Below, piece after piece: positions 1 to 22,573 of a stretch of 25,407 nucleotides of DNA. Positions within the stretch are counted from its first letter, which is position 1, and the number at the start of each line of letters is the position of its first letter. The notes below the pieces were generated by a model. It saw nothing but the letters and a program-made list of their open reading frames with translations, did no database searches and was not told the origin of the DNA. The DNA is from a virus: the IMG/VR virus record IMGVR_UViG_3300002518_004857, positions 1 to 25,407 of that record; one strand, written 5' to 3'. The position numbers were made by a program, and so were the translations under genes.

Positions 1-114
1 ACACGCAGGTTTCTAGCCGTCCAGAGGAAGACACACAGGTTTCTAGCCGTCCAGAGGAAGACACGCAGGTTTCTAGCCGTCCAGAGGAAGATACACAGGT
101 TTCTAGTCGTCCAG
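1..114 (+). repeat. 30-base in-frame tandem repeat, at least four copies
   Basis: The units start at 3, 33, 63 and 93 and encode TQVSSRPEED three times, followed by a diverging fourth copy. Bases 1-2 fit the end of another unit, so the array probably continues to the left of the window. Copies differ at only a few bases, so the expansion looks recent. Confidence 0.9.
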
Positions 115-3100
115 GATCCGAAAGTCCCTTTGAAAGGGATCCTTGGGGCGATGACGAAGAGACGTCAACAGATACTCCAAGCCCCACAGAAAGAATACCT
201 GCTCCAGAAACGGAAGCATCGTCTCCATCGATGAAAGAAGAAGAACCTTCTTATCAGACGGAAGCAAGAAACTTGGAGGATATAAAAGAAATATTACAAG
301 CGGCAGAGCAACCGTCTTCTTATGGTGAAGAATCTTTAGACTCTAAAGATTGGAACGAGAATGAAACAAGACAGTTTAGAGGATTCTACAATCCAGGTGC
401 ATCTGCAGAGAAACTTTCAGATGAGGATATAAAGGAAAATCTTCTCCCCGCAGAGAAGCCAGAGACTGAAGATGTTCTCTCTGACGAGTCTCACGAGTCA
501 ATAACTTCTCTGGCGAATAGCATCTCAGAGGCGTTGGGAGACGCCCCAGAGCATAAAGATCTAGTGGAGCAACTTGAAGAAGTCCAATCCATGCCAACAG
601 ACTCCCCAGAGGCTAAGGAGTCAAGATGGAAGCAATGGCAAGACACCAAATTTGCTATAAAAGATGCCTTGGGTCTTGATTCGGGAGAAGAGGATACTGA
701 AGGATCTGATGAAGACACCTCCGAAGGTGCTATTGAAGAAGATGTTTTTGAAGACGAAAAACTGATAGGTAATGAAGCAAGCGACAACAATGGCAACGAA
801 TCTAAACTTAGAGGAAAAGCTTCAAGAGTTCCTAGAAGAAAAGGAGCAGAAACAAAGTCATATGAAGATGTTGAGATAGATTCACCAGAACGACATATAG
901 GTAATGATGAAGATAGGTCTATTCAAAGGGATATGAACCTGGAGAAATTTAAGTTTCTAAAGGAAGGGTTACGTCATTCGGATGGAAGTCCTATTGCAAC
1001 AGATCATTTTCCAAGAGATATAAGAGATGGTCTTTCTGATTTAGAGGATCGTGCGAACGAATGGTCTGAATCAGAAGAAGCTCCTAGCCCCGAAGAACTA
1101 GAGAAATATCATTCGGATATGGGGCAACTTCGAACAAAGCTTCGTAAATTCAAAAGCACATTAAGAAGAAATCCCGAAACATATAAACGTGGACATAATG
1201 CTCAACAAAATGAAGTAGGTGAAGAATCGTCTACTAAGGACCAGTTAGATCAAAAAGAGGACAACAAAGACACAGGAAAGCAAGAGTTTGCTTTCAAGGA
1301 TCTGTCCCAAACTATAGAGGATATTAAAAAACATGAAGCGCCCACACCAGGGCTCTCGCATGAAGCGTCCACACCAGGGCTCTCGGACGATCATCCTGTT
1401 ATGCAAGAATTGTCGGCGGCAAATGAACAACACTTGGTAGATAGTGCTATCGAGCATGTGAAGAATATTCGCGAAAAGGAACATACGACACACCTATTGC
1501 AGCAGCTTCTTCCGAACACAGCACCGGCTTCTTTTAGAGAGGAATTGGAAAAGCACGGTCAAATTCTACAAAACTATATGCAGAGCCCGATATTCTCTGT
1601 CTTAACTGGAGAGAGTTTAGGGGGAAGTGCAGACTTAGGTAGCGAGCCTGAAGAAACTCGATACATGAGCAGAGGAGAAAAGTTCAAGCATCACCTCTCA
1701 CGATTAGAAAATTTACGAGCCGAGCATGATCCGGCCTTTAGACAAACAGAAGATCGAATCTTTGATCATCTCTCTGGCGTTGGTGATGAAGAGCACCGTT
1801 CTCAACTAGAAGAAATATTCAAACAACTAGGAGAAGGTCCTGGAGTAGGGGGCGATGACGATTTTGTTCTAGATGGGCATCTAGAGCAAAATCGCTCTCG
1901 TTTGAGTGAATATCGTGAACAAAGTCGTTCTCGACGAGAGAGAGATGACGAGTTCTTATCTTCGAGAGAGGAGAGAGAGGGGACTGCGGAGTTTGATAAA
2001 GACACGCAGGAAACCCAGAGCGAGGATACTGATGAAGGTGTTCAAGTTGACTCTGCGAAGAGTGAGCCTAGAGCAGAGTCTTCGGATATAGATACAGAAG
2101 ATTATCAAGAAGATGATCAACAAGAAGATGATTATCAAGAAGATGATCAACAAGAAGATGATTATCAAGAAGATGATCAACAAGAAGATGATTATCAAGA
2201 AGATGACCATCAAGAAGAAGACTATCAAGAAGAAGACTATCAAGAAGAAGACTATCAAGAAGATGATGCTTCTCCGAGCCAACCCATAGAAAGCACAGAA
2301 AGCAATGCTCCGGGAACGAAGGGTGCCCTTCAAATTCAACCCCAGGCAAAACAAGCAAAGAAAAAGAAAAACAATAGTGCAACGCTTAATAGAGCCAGAA
2401 AGTTCCTCCGACATAGCCAAAAGCTAAAAGGGTATATGGACGAGTTTAGAGAGCAATCAGAAGACTCACCATGGCTACGTAGATTGTCTGATAGACTTTT
2501 TCATGGTTCTACAATGAAAGCTTTTGATCAAGCTTACAACCAAGAGCACGCAGAAGCCCTGTCCCATCTATTGGGACAAGATATAGGTCCAGATCAAGAG
2601 GAAGAAGTTGTGCGTTTGGGTAGGTCGCTTTTTAGTCCATTGATAAGTGCATTTGGTGAAGATGCTCTACACGGTGACTACCCATCAAATATACGAAAGC
2701 TCTTGAAAGAATCTTCAAGAAGAGAGTCTCGTAAAAGGATGAAAGAAGCAAAGGCTTCGGGAGAAGGTGGTTTATTTGATGATGCAACCGCCTTTATATC
2801 GGATGCATCTGAGTTAATAACTGGGAACAGATCTTATCGAAGCCAAAGAACAGGAGAAAAACTGAATCAAGAGAACCAGACTCCCGACTCTAACCAGACT
2901 CCCGATTCAAATCTTTTTGATGAGAACGCGGGAGAGGCTCCCAAAGAAAAAACGCCACCATCTTTCCGCGTTGTAAACGACCATTCTCATCCGATACAAA
3001 ATGCATTGGCAGGAATGGGAGAGAATCCAGAAATTTTCGAGACTGCTCAAGGAACTCATAGTGAGGCGTTTGATCTTTTAGATAAGAATAAATCGATTTT

Positions 3101-4775
3101 TAGAGATCATGGTAAAAGATTACAAAGGACATTGGGACAAGACGCATATAGATCTGCATACGGAACAATGGTTCGAAATCTAGAGTCTCGTCTAAAGGGT
3201 TTGCACAAGGAAGGTTCTTCGGGACATCGTCTGCAAGAATATTTGGATGATAATTACGATATGGGTGATTGGCATCCAAAAGGAATTGCGCAAGATTTTG
3301 TGCGACAGGCACAACAGTTTGGACGTGATATAGATCCACAATACAAGGCAGCTTCTCATCATCAGAGCGAACTACAACAACGTTTCCCGGAATTATTTAC
3401 TGGTGAAGAATTGCCAGATCTTCCAGAATTGCCCGAAGAACAAGCAGAGGATGCAGGAATGAGAAACGAAGATGTTTCCGGAGAAGAAGGAACTGCTCCG
3501 TCTCAAAAGAAGAAGCAGAGCTGGGGTGAGAGAGTCTTGGGCTTGGCTGATCGAACTGAGGATGAAGAGTACACAGAAACTGCAATAGAAGATGGAAAAA
3601 GAGTCGAAAAAGAAAAGAAACAAAAAAAGAAACAAAAAAAGAAACAAAAAAAGAAGCAGAGCTGGGGTGAGAGAGCCTTAGGCTTGACTGATCGAACTGA
3701 GGATGAAGAGTATACAGAAACTGCAATAGAAGATGGAGAAAGAGTCGAACGGGAGAAAAAGGAGCAAGAGGAGAAGAAGAAGCAGGACATAGAGACTATG
3801 CGCAGACAGGATAACAAAGCTGTCACTCAAGAGGAAACACAAGAAGAACTATCACAAACCAAGGCAAGGCATGGTGTAAAGAAAGTACTAAGACATCTAG
3901 GAAAAGGAAGTTGGAAGGCAGAAGATCTTCTTCGAGAGCCTGATACTATGCCATTTGCATGGCACACAATTCTTGGAAAGATCGACGATCCAGAAGAAAA
4001 ACGGCAAAAATTGGGCAAGCTGATTCAGGATGCTCAAATTGAACACAATATGTTGCCCCCAGACCAAGCGGCCAGTCTCGAGGAGTTACGTAAACAAGAA
4101 ACTCAGAGAGTGAAAGAAGTTCCCAGTACTCAAGAAGAAGTTTCCGACTCTCAAGCAGAAATGCCCGATTTTGCAAACTGGCTAGGCGGGGACATGGTGG
4201 ATGATTTGGCAGAGTATGGTGTGAATATATCTGGCAATGAAGAAAATCTTGAAGAAGATGATATTTCTAACAAAAGTGTTTCCATAGATAATGATGATAA
4301 AGATCCAGATTCTGTGTTGGGCGCTAAAGGTCCTCTCGTGATAACACCGATGGAGAAGGCTATGGGAGATCCTATGCCTGGAGGCCAAGAGGTTGGTGAG
4401 CAGGGTGATATTGGTCATTATCGACAAATGGGAGGCCAGCCTGTCTTTATAGAAGGACCAGCCCCTGCAGAGCCAGAGCCTCCGCAACCATCGCCTATGC
4501 AGCAAGAAACGCCGGAAGAAGGTGTGGGTGTTTGGCAGTTTACTCGAGGAGACGAGTATTATCAGCCGGGGAGTCCTGATGACCATGGGATATCAGATCC
4601 TGGACCAGAACAAGAAGTGGTAGATTTTATTTCAAACTCCGGAGAAGAGTCGAACGGTTGGGGAGATGGTGGAATGGATGGATTTCTAAAATCCATTGGT
4701 GTTTCTTTTGAGCAAGAAAATGTTTCAATAGAAAAGTCTACTGGTCCTCTTTGTTTTGTTCCGATACATAAATAA
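1..4775 (+). CDS. Giant acidic low-complexity protein, 5' end outside the window
   Basis: The frame is open from the first base and ends at a TAA at 4773-4775, giving at least 1590 residues. The ATG at 231 is internal, because codons 3-230 read straight into it. The protein is rich in Glu, Asp, Gln, Ser and Lys and looks mostly disordered. Tandem repeats occur at 3-114, 1333-1386, 2100-2264, 2876-2908, 3603-3657 and a 141-base duplication at about 3510-3770. Between them are five short stretches that look helical and folded, coded at about 1390-1620, 1680-1830, 2390-2690, 2980-3360 and 3860-4100. No signal peptide, membrane segment or enzyme motif is visible. I do not recognise the family. 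Its place ahead of the portal region suggests a virion-related, scaffold-like or linker protein, but that is only inference. A perfect copy of the module's regulatory palindrome lies in its coding sequence at 331-351. Confidence 0.85.
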   Translation, partial: TQVSSRPEEDTQVSSRPEEDTQVSSRPEEDTQVSSRPGSESPFERDPWGDDEETSTDTPSPTERIPAPETEASSPSMKEEEPSYQTEARNLEDIKEILQAAEQPSSYGEESLDSKDWNENETRQFRGFYNPGASAEKLSDEDIKENLLPAEKPETEDVLSDESHESITSLANSISEALGDAPEHKDLVEQLEEVQSMPTDSPEAKESRWKQWQDTKFAIKDALGLDSGEEDTEGSDEDTSEGAIEEDVFEDEKLIGNEASDNNGNESKLRGKASRVPRRKGAETKSYEDVEIDSPERHIGNDEDRSIQRDMNLEKFKFLKEGLRHSDGSPIATDHFPRDIRDGLSDLEDRANEWSESEEAPSPEELEKYHSDMGQLRTKLRKFKSTLRRNPETYKRGHNAQQNEVGEESSTKDQLDQKEDNKDTGKQEFAFKDLSQTIEDIKKHEAPTPGLSHEASTPGLSDDHPVMQELSAANEQHLVDSAIEHVKNIREKEHTTHLLQQLLPNTAPASFREELEKHGQILQNYMQSPIFSVLTGESLGGSADLGSEPEETRYMSRGEKFKHHLSRLENLRAEHDPAFRQTEDRIFDHLSGVGDEEHRSQLEEIFKQLGEGPGVGGDDDFVLDGHLEQNRSRLSEYREQSRSRRERDDEFLSSREEREGTAEFDKDTQETQSEDTDEGVQVDSAKSEPRAESSDIDTEDYQEDDQQEDDYQEDDQQEDDYQEDDQQEDDYQEDDHQEEDYQEEDYQEEDYQEDDASPSQPIESTESNAPGTKGALQIQPQAKQAKKKKNNSATLNRARKFLRHSQKLKGYMDEFREQSEDSPWLRRLSDRLFHGSTMKAFDQAYNQEHAEALSHLLGQDIGPDQEEEVVRLGRSLFSPLISAFGEDALHGDYPSNIRKLLKESSRRESRKRMKEAKASGEGGLFDDATAFISDASELITGNRSYRSQRTGEKLNQENQTPDSNQTPDSNLFDENAGEAPKEKTPPSFRVVNDHSHPIQNALAGMGENPEIFETAQGTHSEAFDLLDKNKSIFRDHGKRLQRTLGQDAYRSAYGTMVRNLESRLKGLHKEGSSGHRLQEYLDDNYDMGDWHPKGIAQDFVRQAQQFGRDIDPQYKAASHHQSELQQRFPELFTGEELPDLPELPEEQAEDAGMRNEDVSGEEGTAPSQKKKQSWGERVLGLADRTEDEEYTETAIEDGKRVEKEKKQKKKQKKKQKKKQSWGERALGLTDRTEDEEYTETAIEDGERVEREKKEQEEKKKQDIETMRRQDNKAVTQEETQEELSQTKARHGVKKVLRHLGKGSWKAEDLLREPDTMPFAWHTILGKIDDPEEKRQKLGKLIQDAQIEHNMLPPDQAASLEELRKQETQRVKEVPSTQEEVSDSQAEMPDFANWLGGDMVDDLAEYGVNISGNEENLEEDDISNKSVSIDNDDKDPDSVLGAKGPLVITPMEKAMGDPMPGGQEVGEQGDIGHYRQMGGQPVFIEGPAPAEPEPPQPSPMQQETPEEGVGVWQFTRGDEYYQPGSPDDHGISDPGPEQEVVDFISNSGEESNGWGDGGMDGFLKSIGVSFEQENVSIEKSTGPLCFVPIHK
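331..351. repeat. Perfect copy of the 21-base palindrome inside a coding region
   Basis: Arm AATCTTTAGA, central C, arm TCTAAAGATT. It is identical to the intergenic copies except that the central base is C, which means opposite orientation. It is read in frame as ESLDSKD within the giant acidic protein. No gene start follows it nearby. Confidence 0.85.
2100..2264 (+). repeat. Acidic tandem repeat DYQEDDQQED
   Basis: Three 30-base units from 2100 are followed by a variant unit and then by 15-base half-units encoding DYQEE. The stretch is a strongly negative, Gln-rich linker in the giant acidic protein. Long open frames on the minus strand here are mirror images of the repeat. Confidence 0.9.
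3510..3770 (+). repeat. Two copies of a 47-residue unit with a Lys/Gln linker
   Basis: A segment starting KKQSWGER is present from about 3510 and again from about 3651, a 141-base period. Both copies continue through DRTEDEEYTETAIEDG. Between them, repeats of a 12-base unit encode a KKQK-type basic linker at about 3603-3657. The two copies are nearly identical at the DNA level, so the duplication looks recent. Confidence 0.85.
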
Positions 4776-7086: not shown

Positions 7087-7103
7087 GTTAGAGGATGTGT
7101 CCA

Positions 7104-8603
7104 ATGAAACCCAATGGTGGAAACGAAGAGCAGCAAGAAGGTTTAGTGAATGCTCTCGGAGGAGAACCACCACCAGGATGGGGGATTCATCCTATTGAGG
7201 CGCACCTTTGGGATGCTCCAAGATATCGAATACATCCTCTAACAGAGAAGCTTGAAGCTTTGGGTGGAATTTTCCATCGCCTTTGGCCAGAGCATGTAGA
7301 GATTTTGCGTCAGATGAAGATGGATGGGTGGCCGCAAGATGACATAGCAGAAGTTGCCTATACTTTTCGGCAAAGACAAGACGAGGAATACGAAGCCCAC
7401 GAGGCTATTATTGAGGGAGCAAAGCAGCAAAGGCTCGCTCAACTAGAAGACGATGTGGCGGCATCGCACGGTATTGGTGTTGATCCTGAAGAAGAGATGA
7501 TGCAAGAGCAAATGATGGAAGAAGAAGAGATGGGGAAATCTTTCCAATTGCTTCGGAAGTCATCGGATAATTCTGAAATCTCTATGCCTGCCTTTCCTTA
7601 TGCCTATGATGCATTTGGTCCTGTGTTTAAGGAGAGCAGTCTACGACATCACTATGAAGTACTTCATAGAAAATATGTAGAGATGTTTGAGGAAACTCTC
7701 AAAGGAACTGCATGGGAGGGGCTTTCTCCTCTGTCTATTATGATATCTCTTTCTCAGATGCCACCGGGATTGGTAGATAAACTCATTCACTATTTGGGTG
7801 GAGATATTAATCATTCATTCCTTTGGGCTTCTATACAACCTCAAGAGAGAACTGAAGAAGAAGAGGAGAAAAACACATCTAGAGCATCTATCTCCGATCT
7901 TTTAAGAAATGCGATAAAAGATTTATTTGGTAGCATGGAGGAAATGATTGCTAGTGCTAAACGAGAAGCGAATCGTTTAGTGGGATCGGGATGGTTGTGG
8001 TTGGTATACCGTGGGGCCACGGATAGGTTGGCGATGTATACCTTGAGAAATCATGGCAATCCACAAATTATGTATGATGTGGGTCCAGACAACCCAAGTA
8101 TTCCTGGTGATATCCCTCTCATAGGAATAGATCTATGGGAGCACGCCTACCTCGCTGAGTATGGACCCGACAAAGAAGCATATGTGGAGGATTTTTTTCA
8201 AATAATAAATTGGGACGTCATTAACCAAAGGCTTTGGCAAGCAAAAGGATTTCCTGATTCGGATCTGCTAAAATCAAACACGGCAGAGGAACTTTTAGAA
8301 GAACCCGAAGAAGACAAGGATTTGTCCATGCAACCCCTCACAATCGTACACAAGTCGCAGTTACAAGAAGAGAAAGAAAAAGACGGAGAGAACGAATTTC
8401 CTCCTCTCGTATTCAAAATGGACAAGGGCATGGGACAGGGAGACGGAGGGGAACGCAGGCTTTCGCCGCAAGAAGCCGCGGTTGAAAGAGAGTTTGATTT
8501 TTCAAGAGAAGCAACGGGTGTTGCCAACGCCTCTCCCACCCCAAGCGATGACAGTCAACCGCTTCCATCCGAAACAAATCCTCCCATTTATCCTGCCCAA
8601 TAA
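7104..8603 (+). CDS. Virion-locus protein with a complete Fe/Mn superoxide dismutase-like domain
   Basis: 499 residues from the ATG at 7104. AGAGG at 7090-7094 lies nine bases upstream, whereas the in-frame ATG at 7095 touches it and is unlikely to be used. Residues about 162-378 read like an Fe/Mn superoxide dismutase: FPYAYDAFGP opens the domain, then RHH...HRKYV, NHSFLW, FGSMEEM, VGSGWLWLV, IDLWEHAY and NWD, in the family's order and spacing. The four metal ligands are present as His183, His237, Asp343 and His347, and Tyr191 matches the gateway tyrosine. Deviations are Leu for the second-shell histidine after the first ligand, and His317 where Mn enzymes usually have Gln. An acidic helical N-terminal extension and a disordered C-terminal tail of about 120 residues are not part of the enzyme family. 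Superoxide dismutation is inferred. A purely structural use of the fold is also possible. Confidence 0.85.
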   Translation: MKPNGGNEEQQEGLVNALGGEPPPGWGIHPIEAHLWDAPRYRIHPLTEKLEALGGIFHRLWPEHVEILRQMKMDGWPQDDIAEVAYTFRQRQDEEYEAHEAIIEGAKQQRLAQLEDDVAASHGIGVDPEEEMMQEQMMEEEEMGKSFQLLRKSSDNSEISMPAFPYAYDAFGPVFKESSLRHHYEVLHRKYVEMFEETLKGTAWEGLSPLSIMISLSQMPPGLVDKLIHYLGGDINHSFLWASIQPQERTEEEEEKNTSRASISDLLRNAIKDLFGSMEEMIASAKREANRLVGSGWLWLVYRGATDRLAMYTLRNHGNPQIMYDVGPDNPSIPGDIPLIGIDLWEHAYLAEYGPDKEAYVEDFFQIINWDVINQRLWQAKGFPDSDLLKSNTAEELLEEPEEDKDLSMQPLTIVHKSQLQEEKEKDGENEFPPLVFKMDKGMGQGDGGERRLSPQEAAVEREFDFSREATGVANASPTPSDDSQPLPSETNPPIYPAQ

Positions 8604-8734: not shown

Positions 8735-11700
8735 ATGAGTATAAATAGTTGGTTGAAAAACAGAGCTATGGGTCAAGAAGATTCGATGTTGATGATGCAG
8801 GAGCAAACTGTATCTTCTTCACCGAATGCTTTTTTTCAAGATCATTATCATGGTGGAGTGCATGGAGCAAAAGGGAGTGAGGTAAAAAATAATGGAGTCC
8901 CTGTAGGAACAGGGAATGTTCTGGCTACTCACAATGCCGCAGAACAACAAAGCAGTATTATCACTCCATCAACCCAAATGTCTCCCAGTATGTATAGACA
9001 AGGCCCGGACGCATACAAGTCTCTTCCCAGTGGAATGGTTCCTGCGAGAGGGCCACGCACGCGATTCTTCGACCCTCTGACACTCATGTACTCTGCCGGA
9101 TATAGAGAACGTCGCTTCTCGGTGTCCTTTGACGCCCTACGCGCCATTGTGAAGCAGGTGCCTATCATCGCTTCCATTATCACGACACGAGTCAACCAAG
9201 TCGCAGCCTTCGCCCAACCCTATAGAGAAAACAAGCAGGTCGGATTTCAAATCCGATTCAAGGACGATGGACATCAACCATCTGATGAAGAAAAGGAACA
9301 GATTCGAAGACTCGAGCAAATGATTATGGCGTGTGGATTTGGACCCAACCCATACTCTCCCTACCCACGAGATGACTTTGAGACTTTTCTTAGAAAATTC
9401 ACCACAGACTCACTTACGCTAGATCAGGCATGCGCCGAAATCACTCCAGACACATATGGTCGCCCCTATGAGTTCAGAGCAGTAGACGCCGCAACAATTA
9501 GACTCGCAGCTACATTTGAAGGTTTCCGAGGAAGCGGTCCCAATAGACTACAGCGTGAACAATTTACAGACGGATTCCAAGAGCGGTGGAAGAAAGTGTA
9601 TGGAGAAGAGTTTGGAGGAATGACATCTGATCAGGTCTTTTCTATACAACTTCTTCATGGCCGCATCGAAAATATCTTTTCATACAATGATCTTGCATTC
9701 TGCGTGAGAAACCCCGAAACCAATATCTGGAACAATGGATACGGAACTAGCGAACTAGAGAAGGCACTAAACGCCGTACTGGGGATGCTTTGGGGCGAGA
9801 TTTATAACCGAGCCTTCTTCAAGCAGGGCTCAGCGCCGAAGGGATTGATCAACATTAAGGGCGACGAGATTTCCGAGGCCCAAATGGAAAGCTTTAGAAG
9901 AGCTTGGTATGCCATGATCGCAGGTGTGGAAAACTGCCTTCATGGAGATACTACAATTTGGACAAAAGAAGAAGGGATGGTTTCTCTTGAAAACTATATC
10001 GAAGGCACGGAAGAAAAAGAAGCGACAATCTGGACAGGAAAAGAATGGGCTTCGGGTTTGGTCTATCGTACAAAGGAACAAAAGCAACTTTGTCGTCTAA
10101 AGCTAGCGTGTGGATTAGAGATCAAATCATCACCAGATCATAAGTTTAGAGTTCTAGGTGGTGGAGATGGTCTTCCTGTTTGGAAACGACTCGAAGATCT
10201 TCAAGAAGGGGATTATGTTCTCGTAAACAAACAATCCCCACAAAACCCAGACAACATTCCACTTTGCAACGAAAAACAAGTCACACCCGGTCTCATGGAA
10301 GTCCTGGGATGGGCTGTTGGCGATGGGTACTTTAGTAATAGAGGAATGCTTTGTTTCTATCACCATGAAAAAGAAAGAGAGATACGAGAACGACATCTTT
10401 CCATACTCAAAGATTTTGATCCCGCAGCACGATTAAAAGATATCCATATCACTCCCGAAGAACAGGAGAAGATAAAAGAACGATATGGTTTCAAAAGTGT
10501 TGCGTCGGAGCGACTTCAAATTGTTTTAAATAACGTCAATTTTGCCAGATGGTTAAAAGAGGTCGGATTCCAGTTTTCCTCTGAAGGAAAAAACATCCCT
10601 TCGTTTGTGTATACCCTTCCCAATGAATTGAAATTTGCTTTTCTCCGAGGACTCTTCTCTGCCGATGGTCACATAGGAGATGGGCGTTTCGTCGCAATCA
10701 CGATCACAAATGATAGTTTGCGCCAGGAAGTGAAGTGGCTTCTTAGTTCAGTTGGAATTCGAACAAACCTGTCGGAAGGAAAGCAAAAAATTGTCATAAA
10801 TGGCCCTCTTCGGCATTACGAAGAGAAAGAGTCGATTCTTCGCATAAAAGACAAAGACTACTTTTATGAAAATATTGGATTCCTTCAAGATCATAAGCAG
10901 CCCGATGACTTAGTAAGCCCTAACGAGGCGAATAAACATAGCCGGGTTTCTCCGCGCACAATTTATTTCTTCGCCAGAAAAATACAAAAAAAGAATAAAG
11001 AGGCTAATTACGAATTACTAACCCTACGAGAAAGGCTGGACCTTAATGCAATAATTCGAGGCGATGATGGGTGTAGTCATCCTCGTATTCTTCGATTTCT
11101 TGAGAAAGTAAATATTACTCCACCCAACTGGCTTATTGAGTATCACTTCTCTCCTATCGCAGAGATTGAAACAACAAATGATTTCGTTGACATGTTTGAT
11201 GTTTCTATCAACACAGATTTACACGCTTTTGCCGCGAACGGGATTGTCATTTCAAACTCGTTCAGAACCCCTATATTGCAGGCGGAACAGATGGAATACA
11301 TCGACCTGCAGCATACGAATCGGGAGATGGAATTCCAGTCCTGGCTGGAGTATTTGATTCGTCAGGTTTGCGCGTCTTACTTGATTGATCCATCGGAGGT
11401 TGGTTTTGATTTAACAAGTGGTGGTGGGAGTGGTGGGGCACCTGTGTTTGAGAGTAAGCACGAGTGGAAAATAAAGCACTCTCGAGACAAAGGGCTTCGG
11501 CCTCTGCTTCGTTTTATATCGAAACAAATTACGAAGTACATAGTGGACCCATTGGATTCGAGGTTGTATTTCGATTTTGTTGGTTTGGATGAGTTGTCTG
11601 AGAGAGAGCGCGTGGAGCTTCTTAATATGAAGATGAGCGCGTTTATGACACTTAATGAAGGTCGTGCATCTGAGGGTCTTCCTCCTCGTCCGGATGGCAA

Positions 11701-11932
11701 TGTGATTTTGAACCCTGCTTGGATTCAGGCGAGAACCTTATTGGAAGAAGAGGGGCAGATGTTGCCCGATCCCAGTGAGGAGCAAATGGCGTATATGACT
11801 GCGGGTGAGAATGAAATTCCAGGGTATGGTCAAGCCAAGCCAGTTCCGCTTTATATGCAGACTAATCCGGATAGAAACAAAATTCCTCCTTTGGGTGGTG
11901 TGCCAGATCCAAACGATCCAAATCAAATGTGA
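8735..11932 (+). CDS. Phage portal protein interrupted by an intein
   Basis: The open frame is 1065 residues; removing the intein leaves about 624, a plausible portal size. The N-extein (1-400) has portal-like segments: FDALRAIVKQVPIIASIITTR, the LTLDQACAE helix, NPETNIWNNGYGTSELE, and FKQGSAPKGLINIKGD. It is cut within AGVEN. The C-extein resumes at Ser842 (SFRTPILQAEQMEYIDL) and continues with YLIDPSEVGF, FESKHEWKIKHSRDKGLRPL and a Pro-rich acidic tail. The portal forms the dodecameric ring at the capsid vertex through which DNA is packaged and to which the neck docks. Ribosome-binding site: weak AGGCGAG at 8718-8724. It heads the unit running to 16042. Confidence 0.9.
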   Translation: MSINSWLKNRAMGQEDSMLMMQEQTVSSSPNAFFQDHYHGGVHGAKGSEVKNNGVPVGTGNVLATHNAAEQQSSIITPSTQMSPSMYRQGPDAYKSLPSGMVPARGPRTRFFDPLTLMYSAGYRERRFSVSFDALRAIVKQVPIIASIITTRVNQVAAFAQPYRENKQVGFQIRFKDDGHQPSDEEKEQIRRLEQMIMACGFGPNPYSPYPRDDFETFLRKFTTDSLTLDQACAEITPDTYGRPYEFRAVDAATIRLAATFEGFRGSGPNRLQREQFTDGFQERWKKVYGEEFGGMTSDQVFSIQLLHGRIENIFSYNDLAFCVRNPETNIWNNGYGTSELEKALNAVLGMLWGEIYNRAFFKQGSAPKGLINIKGDEISEAQMESFRRAWYAMIAGVENCLHGDTTIWTKEEGMVSLENYIEGTEEKEATIWTGKEWASGLVYRTKEQKQLCRLKLACGLEIKSSPDHKFRVLGGGDGLPVWKRLEDLQEGDYVLVNKQSPQNPDNIPLCNEKQVTPGLMEVLGWAVGDGYFSNRGMLCFYHHEKEREIRERHLSILKDFDPAARLKDIHITPEEQEKIKERYGFKSVASERLQIVLNNVNFARWLKEVGFQFSSEGKNIPSFVYTLPNELKFAFLRGLFSADGHIGDGRFVAITITNDSLRQEVKWLLSSVGIRTNLSEGKQKIVINGPLRHYEEKESILRIKDKDYFYENIGFLQDHKQPDDLVSPNEANKHSRVSPRTIYFFARKIQKKNKEANYELLTLRERLDLNAIIRGDDGCSHPRILRFLEKVNITPPNWLIEYHFSPIAEIETTNDFVDMFDVSINTDLHAFAANGIVISNSFRTPILQAEQMEYIDLQHTNREMEFQSWLEYLIRQVCASYLIDPSEVGFDLTSGGGSGGAPVFESKHEWKIKHSRDKGLRPLLRFISKQITKYIVDPLDSRLYFDFVGLDELSERERVELLNMKMSAFMTLNEGRASEGLPPRPDGNVILNPAWIQARTLLEEEGQMLPDPSEEQMAYMTAGENEIPGYGQAKPVPLYMQTNPDRNKIPPLGGVPDPNDPNQM
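9935..11257 (+). mobile_element. Intein with LAGLIDADG homing endonuclease inside the portal gene
   Basis: 441 residues, Cys401 to Asn841 of the portal frame. Splicing blocks are visible: block A CLHGDTTIW; block B SSPDHKFRV with its His; and C-terminal blocks VDMFDVSINTDLHAFAANG and IVISN, followed by Ser842 as the +1 nucleophile. The penultimate residue is Ser rather than the usual His. Two endonuclease motifs are present, LGWAVGDGYF (Asp530) and FLRGLFSADG (Asp644), both with the acidic residue, so the endonuclease may still be active. A DNA-recognition region lies between and after them. Inteins excise themselves from the translated precursor and ligate the flanks; the endonuclease spreads the element into intein-free alleles. 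Confidence 0.93.
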
Positions 11933-13846: not shown

Positions 13847-14662
13847 ATGACACATGTGATGGATACAGGTGGATTTGCTACTGATTTTGATTTCGAGGGA
13901 ATGGAGGGATTTCATGGTGCTAGAAGCACACCTTTTGTTCATGAGATCGGAGTGCCGTGTCCATGTATGATGTTGAGTCCAAAAGAAGGTGCGGTAGGAC
14001 ATTCAGATCCAACATGCGATAGGTGCAGTGGTTTTGGATATCTTTGGAGAGGGGCCGCTGAATTACGAGGAATTATATCAAATGTTTCCTTTAGAAAAGA
14101 CCTGCAAGATATTGGATGGGTTCAACAGGGTGACATGTTCTTATCCATGGGAACGCACCCAAGAGACATTAGTGATTTTGATCGTATTACAATAAGAATA
14201 CCAGTTCCTGTTCAGCCTATGGTTTTGGTTCGGGGGAAAAAGTCTACTTACTCTATTCGATACGACGATACACCTGACAATTCAGATGTTTTAGAGTGGG
14301 AGGCGGGGGAAGAAAAGGCTATTTGGGTAGAGGATGAGGACGGAGTTTATTATGAGCCTGCCTGCTATGTGCTAAAAGGACGATATATTGAATGGGTTGC
14401 GGGTCCAGCAGTGGGTAAAAAATACACAATTAAATACAAGGCGTACCCCGAATACATATGTTGGGCGACACCAACACAAAATTTTGATGGAATGAAATTA
14501 ATCGGACCATCTGCGCTAATGAGAAAGATAGCCTTGCAAGTAAATCCCAAGAAAAAACAAATTCGTCCACCTTGGCAAGATCGTGTAAGCAATGCGACAA
14601 GAGGCAACCATAGCAACAAGGATGCTTTCATGACGCTTCCTTCTGTAGAGCCGAGTAGATAA
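13847..14662 (+). CDS. Putative neck or head-closure protein with a Cys zinc-binding knuckle
   Basis: 271 residues; GAGGA at 13833-13837 supports the start. Near the N terminus, Cys38 and Cys40 (CPC) and Cys57 and Cys60 (CDRC), with His52 between, form a plausible zinc knuckle followed by SGFGY. The remainder is beta-rich, with patterns such as GDMFLSMG, FDRITIRIP, GRYIEWVAGPAVGKKYTIKYKAYPEY. This reads like the neck or connector-type beta-sandwich proteins of large myophages. Its place between portal and sheath fits a head-tail connector. The exact role (head completion or stopper) cannot be fixed from sequence. Confidence 0.7.
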   Translation: MTHVMDTGGFATDFDFEGMEGFHGARSTPFVHEIGVPCPCMMLSPKEGAVGHSDPTCDRCSGFGYLWRGAAELRGIISNVSFRKDLQDIGWVQQGDMFLSMGTHPRDISDFDRITIRIPVPVQPMVLVRGKKSTYSIRYDDTPDNSDVLEWEAGEEKAIWVEDEDGVYYEPACYVLKGRYIEWVAGPAVGKKYTIKYKAYPEYICWATPTQNFDGMKLIGPSALMRKIALQVNPKKKQIRPPWQDRVSNATRGNHSNKDAFMTLPSVEPSR

Positions 14663-16333: not shown

Positions 16334-19204
16334 ATGTCAGATCGAGTTCTGTTTCATAACAAAGTTATTCGACATCCCGGCGCGGAAGTCTACGTTGATT
16401 TATCTGGTATGGTGCAGCCGGGGGTTGATGAAACCCGAGTGGCGGGAGGAATAGCAGAAGCTCCTGGGGGGCAACCGGGTGTAACGCATGTCTTTGTTGA
16501 GTCAAAGACGGCGCATTCCGTGTTTGGTCAATCAGATGCATCGAATCTTGTCAAGATTCTCATGGATCCTTCAAAGGATACAAGAGTAGAAGGCGGTGCT
16601 GATGTTGTTTACATCTACAAACCGAACAGAACAACGCAGGCAGAATACTGGGTTGTTCGAGATCCTGAGCAATCGCAAGTAAAGGCTCTCACTTTTCCGA
16701 CAGTGCAAGTATCCGCTGCTTATGCGGCAAAGCGTGATGATACAACTGATCCGATTACACCAGCATTTGTAAACATCAGTACTCCCACATTCAGTTTCGC
16801 GACGGGAGAGCTAAATAATCTTGTTGCCGAGGTTTTGGGTGGGACGGGCAAAGGACAGCAGCGTTTTATTCAAGCCTCCACTGATCTCACAACAAATAGA
16901 GTGAAGCTGGAATTACGTGATGATCAAGATTGGGATGTACTGCCTGATAGCACTTCTACTATTCGTATTCTTACTCCTCAAGCGAAACTGACGGCTATTC
17001 CTTGGGGTACAGATGGAAATGACAACGAGATTGAGCACGGACGACAACCCCTTAGCCAAAGCTACGAGCTTCAGACAAAAAAATCGAAGCGCGTTCAGGT
17101 TGCCAAGACTCCTTATGGTGGATTGAGAAAGACACCATTCCATGTCAAATTTGACCCAACAGGTGGTGGCCCACTAGGAACATGGAATATCCCTGCAAAC
17201 TGGGTGATACCACAGGCTGTAGATAATGGTGCAGTAGAAGGAACAGCAACAGGGGTGGCCACCAATACATCCCTGGATGGTGGGAGTGGGATGACCACAG
17301 CGCCTGCCGCACTGATGCCCAACAGATGGCTCATTGTTACTGAAGTAAGTAGTCTTGTTCCCGCCCAAGCCCCGGTTCTGGGTAAGTGCTTTAAAATTCT
17401 CACCAACACGGCTACTACTATTTCTTTGATGCGTCCCGGACTTGGATTGCCATCGGGAACAGACCTCACCGGACTGAAGTGGAAGGTCTTTGCTATTACT
17501 GATGTCTATATGGAAATAGGCGGAACCGATGGCGCGGCCACATCGCTCAAGATTCAAAAACGAGATGGTGGTGGTGTTACCACAATTATTTCGCTAGATT
17601 TGACCTTATACCCCACGCTAGGGGATCTTGAGAAGAAACTTGATGGGATAGCCGGAATTTTCTCGACGATTGGCCATGGTGTGAGTTCCGGCTATCTCAC
17701 CAAAGATTTAGACTTTGGGATTTTATCCGACCATTATGGGCAAGATCGTCGCTCTGCCATAGATACAGCCGTTGTCATTGGCGACACCACACTGTCTTTG
17801 GAAGTTTCCGACGACTTCCCCACGACGGCTGGTGGAGAAACATATCTGATTCGTATTGAGCCGGGTGATGCTAATGAAGAGACTGTTCGTGTCACTGGTA
17901 ACGACACAGGCACAGACACTCTTACAGTGGATCCCCTGGTAAAAGCACACGCTATTGACAGTGTTGTTGAGTTTGTTCGTGGATCGCAGCTTATACAAGG
18001 GCCGGGAAACACCAGTCTTGGGTTCCCTGTTCGCGATAATCTGAAGTCTATGCTTGATCTTATCGCAAACTCAATAGGTCACTTCACTGCAGATCGGGCA
18101 GTTGGTCCTGGCTCTACAGGCACCACAGCCGTTTCTGCAGCCTGGAACACGATGATAGGCTCTGCGCAACCTGAAGACAATAAAGATTTGTTTCGGCGTT
18201 TCTCGGGTGGTGAAGTTGGAACATCCATCGTTCAAAAACCATCGGTAGCAACTCTTCCTGGGTATCCCATTTCTTGGGAACACGGCATGGATACTCTCTT
18301 GAAAAACAGAGATATTCGAGTTGAAGTTCTCGCAGCTTCGCAAGATAAGCCGAATTGGGCTACAGACGACATCTTTACTCTCCACAACCTATTCAAGACT
18401 CATCTCCTGGATTGTGAGGACAATAAGGGTGAACGCATTGGGTTTATGGGGATGGCATTGCCTCTTCGCGCAGGAACCTTTGCAAACAAGGTTTTCCCAA
18501 AAGGTCTTTTGGACATCGTGAGAGAAGCAAATGAACCGCGTTTAGCTTTGACAGGACAGCAGCTACGACGCAGCAACAGCGGTGGTGAAACCAAGCTCTT
18601 GGACGAATGGGCACTTGCCGCTGCCGCGGCAGGGACGATGATGGGTACTGACTTAGGTGAACCCATTACTCTCAAGTTTGTCAAAGGCAGTGAGCTTGTC
18701 CAGCGTTATGGCGATTGGGACCCACAAGAACCTCTGGATATAAAAGATGCGTTGGATGGTCGCCTTCTCTACGGCGAACCCCACGGAAAAGGGTGGAGGT
18801 TTGTCAGGGGATTCAGTACACATGTCCAAGATGCGAATCTTGCATTGACGGATTTGAATGTTTTTGAAATTCGAAACTATATCCGACGCCGCTATCGAAC
18901 CAAGATGGAAGATCGATTCGGTGGTGTTGGATCCGGAAATCAGCGCCCAGGTGTTCGATACGTGGCTCCGGGTGGCATCGCGTCTATACGTGAGTATATG
19001 GGCGATCTTTTGGATGAAGATCGCGAAAACGGAATCATCGTCGATTCTTTGGACGAGAACAATGAGTGGACTCATGCATGGTATGCTCTTAGCGTAAAGC
19101 AGACGGGAGATACTGTGTGGATCAAGGTTCTTGTCTTTCCAAAGACAGGGATTAACTACATCCTCATCGACTTTGATTTCCAGATTCCGAGATTGTCCGC
19201 ATAG
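16334..19204 (+). CDS. Contractile tail sheath protein, enlarged
   Basis: 956 residues, much longer than T4 gp18 (659). The start has AGGGA at 16323-16327, six bases upstream. The C-terminal 170 residues are typical of sheath proteins: GRLLYGEPHGKGWRFVRGF, DLNVFEIRNYIRRRYRTKM, WYALSVKQTGDTVWIKV and a closing FDFQIPRL strand. Sheath subunits polymerise around the tube and contract on infection. Two inserted beta modules resemble small repeats of phage fibres: residues about 125-212 (GTGKGQQRFIQAST...PDSTSTIRI) and about 478-550 (DTTLSLEVSDDFP...EETVRVTG...TLTVDP). They probably decorate the outside of the tail. A strong hairpin terminator follows the gene, so it forms its own transcription unit behind a palindromic box. 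Confidence 0.88.
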   Translation: MSDRVLFHNKVIRHPGAEVYVDLSGMVQPGVDETRVAGGIAEAPGGQPGVTHVFVESKTAHSVFGQSDASNLVKILMDPSKDTRVEGGADVVYIYKPNRTTQAEYWVVRDPEQSQVKALTFPTVQVSAAYAAKRDDTTDPITPAFVNISTPTFSFATGELNNLVAEVLGGTGKGQQRFIQASTDLTTNRVKLELRDDQDWDVLPDSTSTIRILTPQAKLTAIPWGTDGNDNEIEHGRQPLSQSYELQTKKSKRVQVAKTPYGGLRKTPFHVKFDPTGGGPLGTWNIPANWVIPQAVDNGAVEGTATGVATNTSLDGGSGMTTAPAALMPNRWLIVTEVSSLVPAQAPVLGKCFKILTNTATTISLMRPGLGLPSGTDLTGLKWKVFAITDVYMEIGGTDGAATSLKIQKRDGGGVTTIISLDLTLYPTLGDLEKKLDGIAGIFSTIGHGVSSGYLTKDLDFGILSDHYGQDRRSAIDTAVVIGDTTLSLEVSDDFPTTAGGETYLIRIEPGDANEETVRVTGNDTGTDTLTVDPLVKAHAIDSVVEFVRGSQLIQGPGNTSLGFPVRDNLKSMLDLIANSIGHFTADRAVGPGSTGTTAVSAAWNTMIGSAQPEDNKDLFRRFSGGEVGTSIVQKPSVATLPGYPISWEHGMDTLLKNRDIRVEVLAASQDKPNWATDDIFTLHNLFKTHLLDCEDNKGERIGFMGMALPLRAGTFANKVFPKGLLDIVREANEPRLALTGQQLRRSNSGGETKLLDEWALAAAAAGTMMGTDLGEPITLKFVKGSELVQRYGDWDPQEPLDIKDALDGRLLYGEPHGKGWRFVRGFSTHVQDANLALTDLNVFEIRNYIRRRYRTKMEDRFGGVGSGNQRPGVRYVAPGGIASIREYMGDLLDEDRENGIIVDSLDENNEWTHAWYALSVKQTGDTVWIKVLVFPKTGINYILIDFDFQIPRLSA

Positions 19205-22147: not shown

Positions 22148-22573
22148 ATGTCAGGATTGTTGCCAAACGCATCTCAAACAATTTTTCCACAGAGGGAAAG
22201 AGATGCCGAAACATCGCCACCGGATCAAAATGATTTCTATGTATACAGAGCGCTTTGTACATCTGTATATGATGGAGATACGGTCAAACTTGATATTTCA
22301 TTGGGGTTTGGTGTTTGGCTTCGAGATCAGACCGTGCGTTTGGCGGGTATTGATGCATGGGAACTTCGCGGCGAGGAAAGAGAGAAGGGACTTCTGGCAA
22401 AGGAGGCTTTACAAGACTTGATCGAAGGCAAGGAAGTCATTATCAGGTCTGAAAAAGATAAAGCGGGGAAATATGGGAGATATATCATCCATGTTTTCCT
22501 AGAAGATGGTGAAGGCTATAAGTACGTTAATTACTGGATGATCGGTCAAGGTCATGCAGTAGAATATGCTTAA
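22148..22573 (+). CDS. Thermonuclease (staphylococcal nuclease-like) enzyme
   Basis: 141 residues; AGGAG at 22135-22139 supports the start. After a 28-residue low-complexity N terminus the SNase fold is clear: YDGDTVKL with Asp42 and Asp44, VRLAGIDAWE with Arg64, Asp69 and Glu72, and KAGKYGRYI with Arg111. These match the family's calcium ligands and catalytic Arg and Glu; the usual Thr after the second Asp is Ala70. The end, GQGHAVEYA, also fits the family. No signal peptide is visible, so it acts in the infected cell or in the virion. It probably cuts DNA or RNA. Its place between chaperones and tape measure might reflect virion-carried DNA entry or simple cargo insertion. Confidence 0.9.
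   Translation: MSGLLPNASQTIFPQRERDAETSPPDQNDFYVYRALCTSVYDGDTVKLDISLGFGVWLRDQTVRLAGIDAWELRGEEREKGLLAKEALQDLIEGKEVIIRSEKDKAGKYGRYIIHVFLEDGEGYKYVNYWMIGQGHAVEYA

Follow-up and report, generated by a model that had tools for sequence, protein, structure and literature searches.

A complete Fe/Mn superoxide dismutase (SOD) domain lies inside a larger phage protein, encoded by a 502-aa gene that precedes the portal gene in a viral DNA stretch of 25,407 nucleotides (IMG/VR record IMGVR_UViG_3300002518_004857, positions 1 to 25,407; hereafter the window). The domain carries the complete set of metal ligands and has the predicted SOD fold, and nothing but a short gap separates its gene from the portal gene. 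Its position and the analogy with other phages suggest that the protein is packaged in the virion: it would be a metal-binding, probably active SOD, a late head-module protein that enters the prohead and is ejected with the DNA. We put the probability of this reading at about 0.52. The relevant features of the window are as follows.

7095 to 8603, plus strand: gene of the SOD-containing protein, 502 aa in the open reading frame list (499 aa from the alternative start at 7104)
7095 to 7574, plus strand: N-terminal acidic helical region, residues 1-160, from composition and AlphaFold (AF2) helices, without a homologue detectable by phmmer in the loci of portal relatives
7575 to 8258, plus strand: Fe/Mn SOD domain, residues 161-388, from Pfam, PDB sequence match, AF2, Foldseek and NCBIfam SOD models
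8259 to 8600, plus strand: acidic tail at the C-terminus, residues 389-502, mostly disordered by prediction (AF2 pLDDT 33-63 from residue 411 onward)
8735 to 11932, plus strand: portal protein gene, SPO1-like, with a LAGLIDADG intein inside (Pfam Phage_portal 3.5e-16, PHROG portal 7e-49)
13847 to 14662, plus strand: head and packaging (virion structural) protein gene (phrog_1004, 4e-14)
16334 to 19204, plus strand: tail sheath gene, anchor of the structural module (phrog_279 tail sheath, 1.7e-13)

The first-pass annotation, made from the sequence alone, had placed a full SOD domain at about residues 162-378, and the profile search bore this out. Sod_Fe_N (residues 163-247, 8.8e-9) is followed in family order by Sod_Fe_C (residues 270-379, 1.4e-24), and both exceed the Pfam gathering cut-offs. 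The top PDB sequence match is the MnSOD 1y67 (6e-26). The match to the NCBIfam SOD models (2e-25) scores far under their equivalog cut-offs, as expected because the window SOD is a diverged member of the family. Structure prediction recovered the fold on which the claim depended: pLDDT is mostly above 90 across the domain, being weaker around residues 250-260 and 321-340, and the predicted fold aligns with MnSOD structures in Foldseek (E 3e-14, TM-score to target 0.81-0.89). The metal ligands previously numbered 183, 237, 343 and 347 are the same residues as those given here as 186, 240, 346 and 350; the former are counted from the ATG at 7104, the latter from the ATG at 7095. An AGAGG element stands 9 nt from the ATG at 7104, a better spacing than for the ATG at 7095.

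The annotated extensions beyond the SOD family were likewise found. Both flanks are acidic, with net charges of -19 (residues 1-160) and -15 (389-502). The N-terminal part is helical in the AF2 model (residues 49-60, 65-76, 81-124 and 131-153), and the tail past about residue 410 is mostly of low confidence. The SOD itself carries an inserted acidic loop. No flank homologue was detected by phmmer in the loci of portal relatives, and the flanks showed no homology to other window proteins. The N-terminal region was considered as a homologue of the relatives' small pre-portal proteins; the similarity was not significant.

The portal gene, 37-41% identical in its product to SPO1-like Herelleviridae portals, starts about 130 nt 3' of the SOD gene, in agreement with the annotated position, and the structural module is collinear. 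The SOD gene recurs without a single nucleotide difference in a second contig (G001, 65.9 kb), which shares about 98.8% identity with the window where the two overlap. Several other features of the module were observed. The LAGLIDADG intein spans 441 aa (portal residues 401-841, window 9935-11257), the G001 portal contains an additional 223-aa mini-intein about 36 residues upstream of it, and substitutions between the two contigs crowd around the intein insertion sites. Upstream in the module, positions 3-4775 encode a very acidic, repeat-rich protein with QEDDYQEDD repeats (2601 aa in G001), and a thermonuclease-like gene with weak NCBIfam matches lies between tail genes at 22148-22573.

The place directly before the portal is plausibly a cargo slot, judging by analogy. 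In related phages, 63 genes in this position were examined. A PARP catalytic domain is encoded by five of them and an SLT transglycosylase domain by three; single genes encode a Zeta toxin, a Strawberry-notch-type helicase or a D12 methyltransferase, and most have no recognised domain. In T4, the ADP-ribosyltransferase Alt is packaged in the head and ejected (PMC9026906). In the P1 virion proteome, Ulx (ORF 9) and DarB (ORF 10), both head proteins, precede the portal (ORF 11) (PMC9024508). The cargo interpretation builds on these three observations: ADP-ribosyltransferase and SLT genes in the slot, packaging of T4 Alt, and DarB before the P1 portal. T4 Alt, the T4 internal proteins and P1 DarB resemble the window protein in that the gene lies beside head genes, darB even directly before the portal gene. 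They differ in having unrelated folds and in that their packaging is experimental, whereas that of the window protein is deduced. No other SOD was found near the portal among the loci of 80 portal relatives. In Lysinibacillus phage LysYB1 and its relatives, the protein encoded before the portal (L009:4225-6840, L061, L062, L067 and L075) carries the PARP-type domain at its C-terminus and is a candidate for Alt-like ejection.

Support for packaging is stronger from the SODs of other phages than from the window itself. A first set comprised 80 viral SOD sequences, and a scan with a broader pattern added at least 79 further SOD loci. The window fusion is not unique: the first 80 viral SODs are standalone-sized except for the G001 twin, but among the matches listed from the broader scan many SODs sit inside proteins of 361-911 aa. 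Some of these loci belong to T4-type phages, as a gp21-type protease and a gp23-type major capsid protein (MCP) are both present in 5 of the 14 records tested, which may be fragments. L282 has protease, scaffold and MCP genes (gp21-gp22-gp23 type) followed, after 84 nt, by the SOD gene, and L103 shows a similar arrangement. In L102 and L114, the SOD is placed between the protease and MCP genes. In one lineage of at least about 70 loci, the SOD adjoins a neck-like gene, which weakly matches a head-tail adaptor profile, and the tail sheath lies some 3.6-5.6 kb away from the SOD.

The large T4-type fusions (L260-L338) resemble the window protein in that their SOD is built into a longer polypeptide and their genes lie within or close to a set of structural genes. 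They differ in their canonical H30, Y174 and Q146 (E. coli MnSOD numbering), in a SOD that lies close to the N-terminus or follows a HEWxH-type region, in a C-terminal E..D..QxK pattern and in [LI]xE motifs flanking the SOD on both sides. Kinship of the window SOD with these fusions was considered and is unsupported, the window SOD being on a long branch. The N-terminal region of some of the fusions contains HEWxHxxQ (metallopeptidase-like). Their C-terminal part has an invariant E..D..D..QxK pattern and, judged by eye, is possibly a D-QxK nuclease; Foldseek named only SODs among the matches listed. The 501-aa UniProt entry A0A6J5L953, known here from a BFVD match, is possibly a fusion of this type.

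Targeting signals were sought in the same loci. An N-terminal targeting sequence, cleaved by gp21, takes the internal proteins of T4 into the head (PMC9026906), and the cleavage sites of Alt are ITE-6 and LTE-619 (PMC5694885). With [LI]xE as the T4 prohead-protease motif and a leader scored when the motif ends at residues 8-16, leaders were found in 32 of 64 distinct viral SODs versus 134 of 872 (15%) other genes of those loci. This count, taken over all loci, supersedes an earlier one of 17/18, which was circular as the loci had been picked for the leader. Of 32 distinct proteins from the fusion lineage and the SODs closest to it, 31 have [LI]xE at most 20 residues before the SOD (48/288 in within-domain control windows), and (L/I)xE triplets stand C-terminal to the SOD at two places in all 22 aligned members; these are related sequences, so the counts do not represent independent events. 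In L102, the SOD has a MIKLKxLLxE-like leader in common with six small genes upstream of it and with a further gene past the MCP, the pattern that a common targeting signal would produce. The six small proteins (87-210 aa, L102:2412-6293), encoded between the protease and MCP genes, are candidates for new internal head proteins.

In the window protein, no T4-type [LI]xE was found close before the start of the SOD; the motif belongs to the T4 protease and may not be that of this phage. The nearest upstream motif is IIE at residues 105-107, and LLE stands past the SOD at 400-402. The virion role first suggested for the protein has gained ground through its pre-portal position and the head-module SODs and leaders of other lineages, but a recognisable targeting signal is absent from the protein itself.

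Alternatively, the protein could be an ordinary auxiliary SOD acting in the host cytoplasm late in infection, with its pre-portal place due to chance gene gain and no protein in the particle. Standalone SODs do occur outside head modules, among metabolic and chaperone genes, in phages of the PA5oct group such as MIJ3 and in the cultured Vibrio phage 2.275.O, and a leader is altogether missing from many viral SODs. The SOD of the cultured Pseudomonas phage MIJ3 (L012:9755-10303), whose gene lies amid metabolic genes, has a T4-like N-terminal leader, MNDSIKKYISIAE, ending in IAE. The PA5oct/MIJ3 (sodB) and 2.275.O enzymes share with the window SOD the four ligands, Leu in place of H30 and a non-Tyr residue at 174. 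They differ from it in their length of 182-189 aa, the lack of long flanks and their setting among metabolic or other non-structural genes. The window SOD, by contrast, is not standalone: it is flanked by 160 and 114 residues and sits in a structural module, and placement in the head module recurs among other phages. We therefore consider a purely cytoplasmic role unlikely, while giving it more credence than the explanations discussed below.

The residues of the active site bear on whether the domain is still an enzyme.

7650 to 7652, plus strand: metal ligand His186 (E. coli MnSOD His26), from alignments
7662 to 7664, plus strand: Leu190 at the position of the gateway His30 of cellular SODs, paired with Leu353 at the Tyr174 position, from alignment
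7812 to 7814, plus strand: metal ligand His240 (His81), from alignments
8052 to 8054, plus strand: His320 at the position of the water-coordinating C-terminal Gln146, from alignment and PDB match
8130 to 8132, plus strand: metal ligand Asp346 (Asp167), with Gly344 as the XD-2 residue, from alignments
8142 to 8144, plus strand: metal ligand His350 (His171), from alignments

The first comparison aligned 60 distinct viral SODs with 86 cellular ones. All of them share the four ligands, W169 and E170, and almost all have W128; hence, the ligand set of the window SOD is not due to chance. Besides all four ligands, the window SOD retains W300, W348 and E349, together with 10 of 10 columns conserved at 97% or more in the other sequences. 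Of 170 well-filled columns, its residue agrees with the majority in only 60; its identity to other SODs is at best about 30%, and its branch in the tree is very long, at 2.38 changes per site. The second shell is altered (H30L, Y174L, R181K), which could lower activity. An aliphatic residue at 30 with a non-Tyr residue at 174 was found in 38 of the 60 viral and none of the 86 cellular SODs, a pairing that few independent changes underlie. It marks some phage SODs and not all, as both His30 and Tyr174 are kept in a later set of 78 phage SODs among the matches listed. A clade of the window SOD with the His30-lacking phage SODs was neither shown nor rejected (AU p = 0.31).

The HXXXHH motif of the cellular SodFM subfamilies (PMC10172142) is not present in the window SOD, which reads HYEVLH with Leu190 in place of the second His. 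The water-coordinating Gln of SodFM1/5 (C-terminal) or SodFM2 (N-terminal) is absent too, with His320 and Gly236 at these positions. SodFM3/4 combine a C-terminal His, which the window SOD has too, with a tetrameric helix architecture, and a His-bearing SodFM1 is also on record (PMC10172142). Judged by its ligands and predicted fold, the window SOD is a diverged member of the Fe/Mn SOD (SodFM) family outside any named cellular subfamily. It has in common with bacterial SodFM such as E. coli SodA and D. radiodurans MnSOD (1y67) both Pfam domains, the four ligands, the predicted fold and the W128, W169, E170 and Y34 positions. It differs in its identity of about 30%, His for Gln146, Leu for His30 and Tyr174 and Lys for Arg181, and the whole protein in the inserted acidic loop, the 160-aa and 114-aa extensions and the head-module location.

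This divergence raises the question of structural re-use, in which the fold would be part of a scaffold, a decoration protein or a protein associated with the portal and would catalyse little or nothing. The long branch, the second-shell changes, the fusion and the structural neighbourhood all fit such a role, and PAP9/FSD2 chains of chloroplast RNA polymerase complexes are among the PDB matches. SOD-fold subunits also occur in mitoribosomes. Against it, the four ligands and the ten most conserved columns survive, and no viral SOD in the comparison has lost a ligand, even among those with the same changes at H30 and Y174. Since all ligands and the neighbouring W and E residues outlast about 70% divergence, a purely structural, non-catalytic role becomes less likely, and we regard it as improbable. 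An assembly chimera joining a contaminating bacterial SOD gene to phage sequence is very improbable: bacterial SOD contigs do occur as contaminants in phage collections, but the same arrangement in G001, which differs elsewhere, counts strongly against it, the gene is a single open frame with non-cellular flanks, and no cellular SOD was found closer than about 32-33%.

Because SODs recur in head modules, packaging explains the gene better than any other single reading, whether a plain enzyme of the host cytoplasm or a structural fold that has lost its activity. The SOD, which forms the middle domain of a late head-module protein, would bind metal and probably be active. The acidic helical flanks would most likely bring the protein into the prohead, next to the portal, where it would stay inside the capsid and leave with the DNA. 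Superoxide dismutation would then be on hand in the host from the first moment of infection and, earlier, around the packaged DNA. A virion-packaged SOD has a precedent in chlorovirus PBCV-1, which packages an active Cu/Zn SOD linked to less superoxide after infection (PMC7019647). Like the window SOD, this enzyme (A245R) is virus-encoded, and it is reported as a late gene product packaged in the virion (PMC7019647); it differs in being a Cu/Zn enzyme of a eukaryotic virus with no fusion reported. The open-access library searched yielded no report of a phage SOD packaged in virions.

More broadly, and more tentatively, SOD may have been recruited repeatedly as capsid-packaged, ejected cargo in separate tailed-phage groups, as a general anti-superoxide strategy at DNA entry. 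The groups concerned would be the SPO1-like pre-portal fusion, the T4-type gp23-adjacent SODs, the protease/MCP cassette and the neck-adjacent polyproteins cut by the prohead protease. Phage SOD genes are usually taken as metabolic cargo. If packed and ejected, the SOD would act ahead of any phage gene expression. A superoxide burst at phage entry would then be a real hazard, or a host defence, and SOD would join the short list of virion-delivered enzyme activities.
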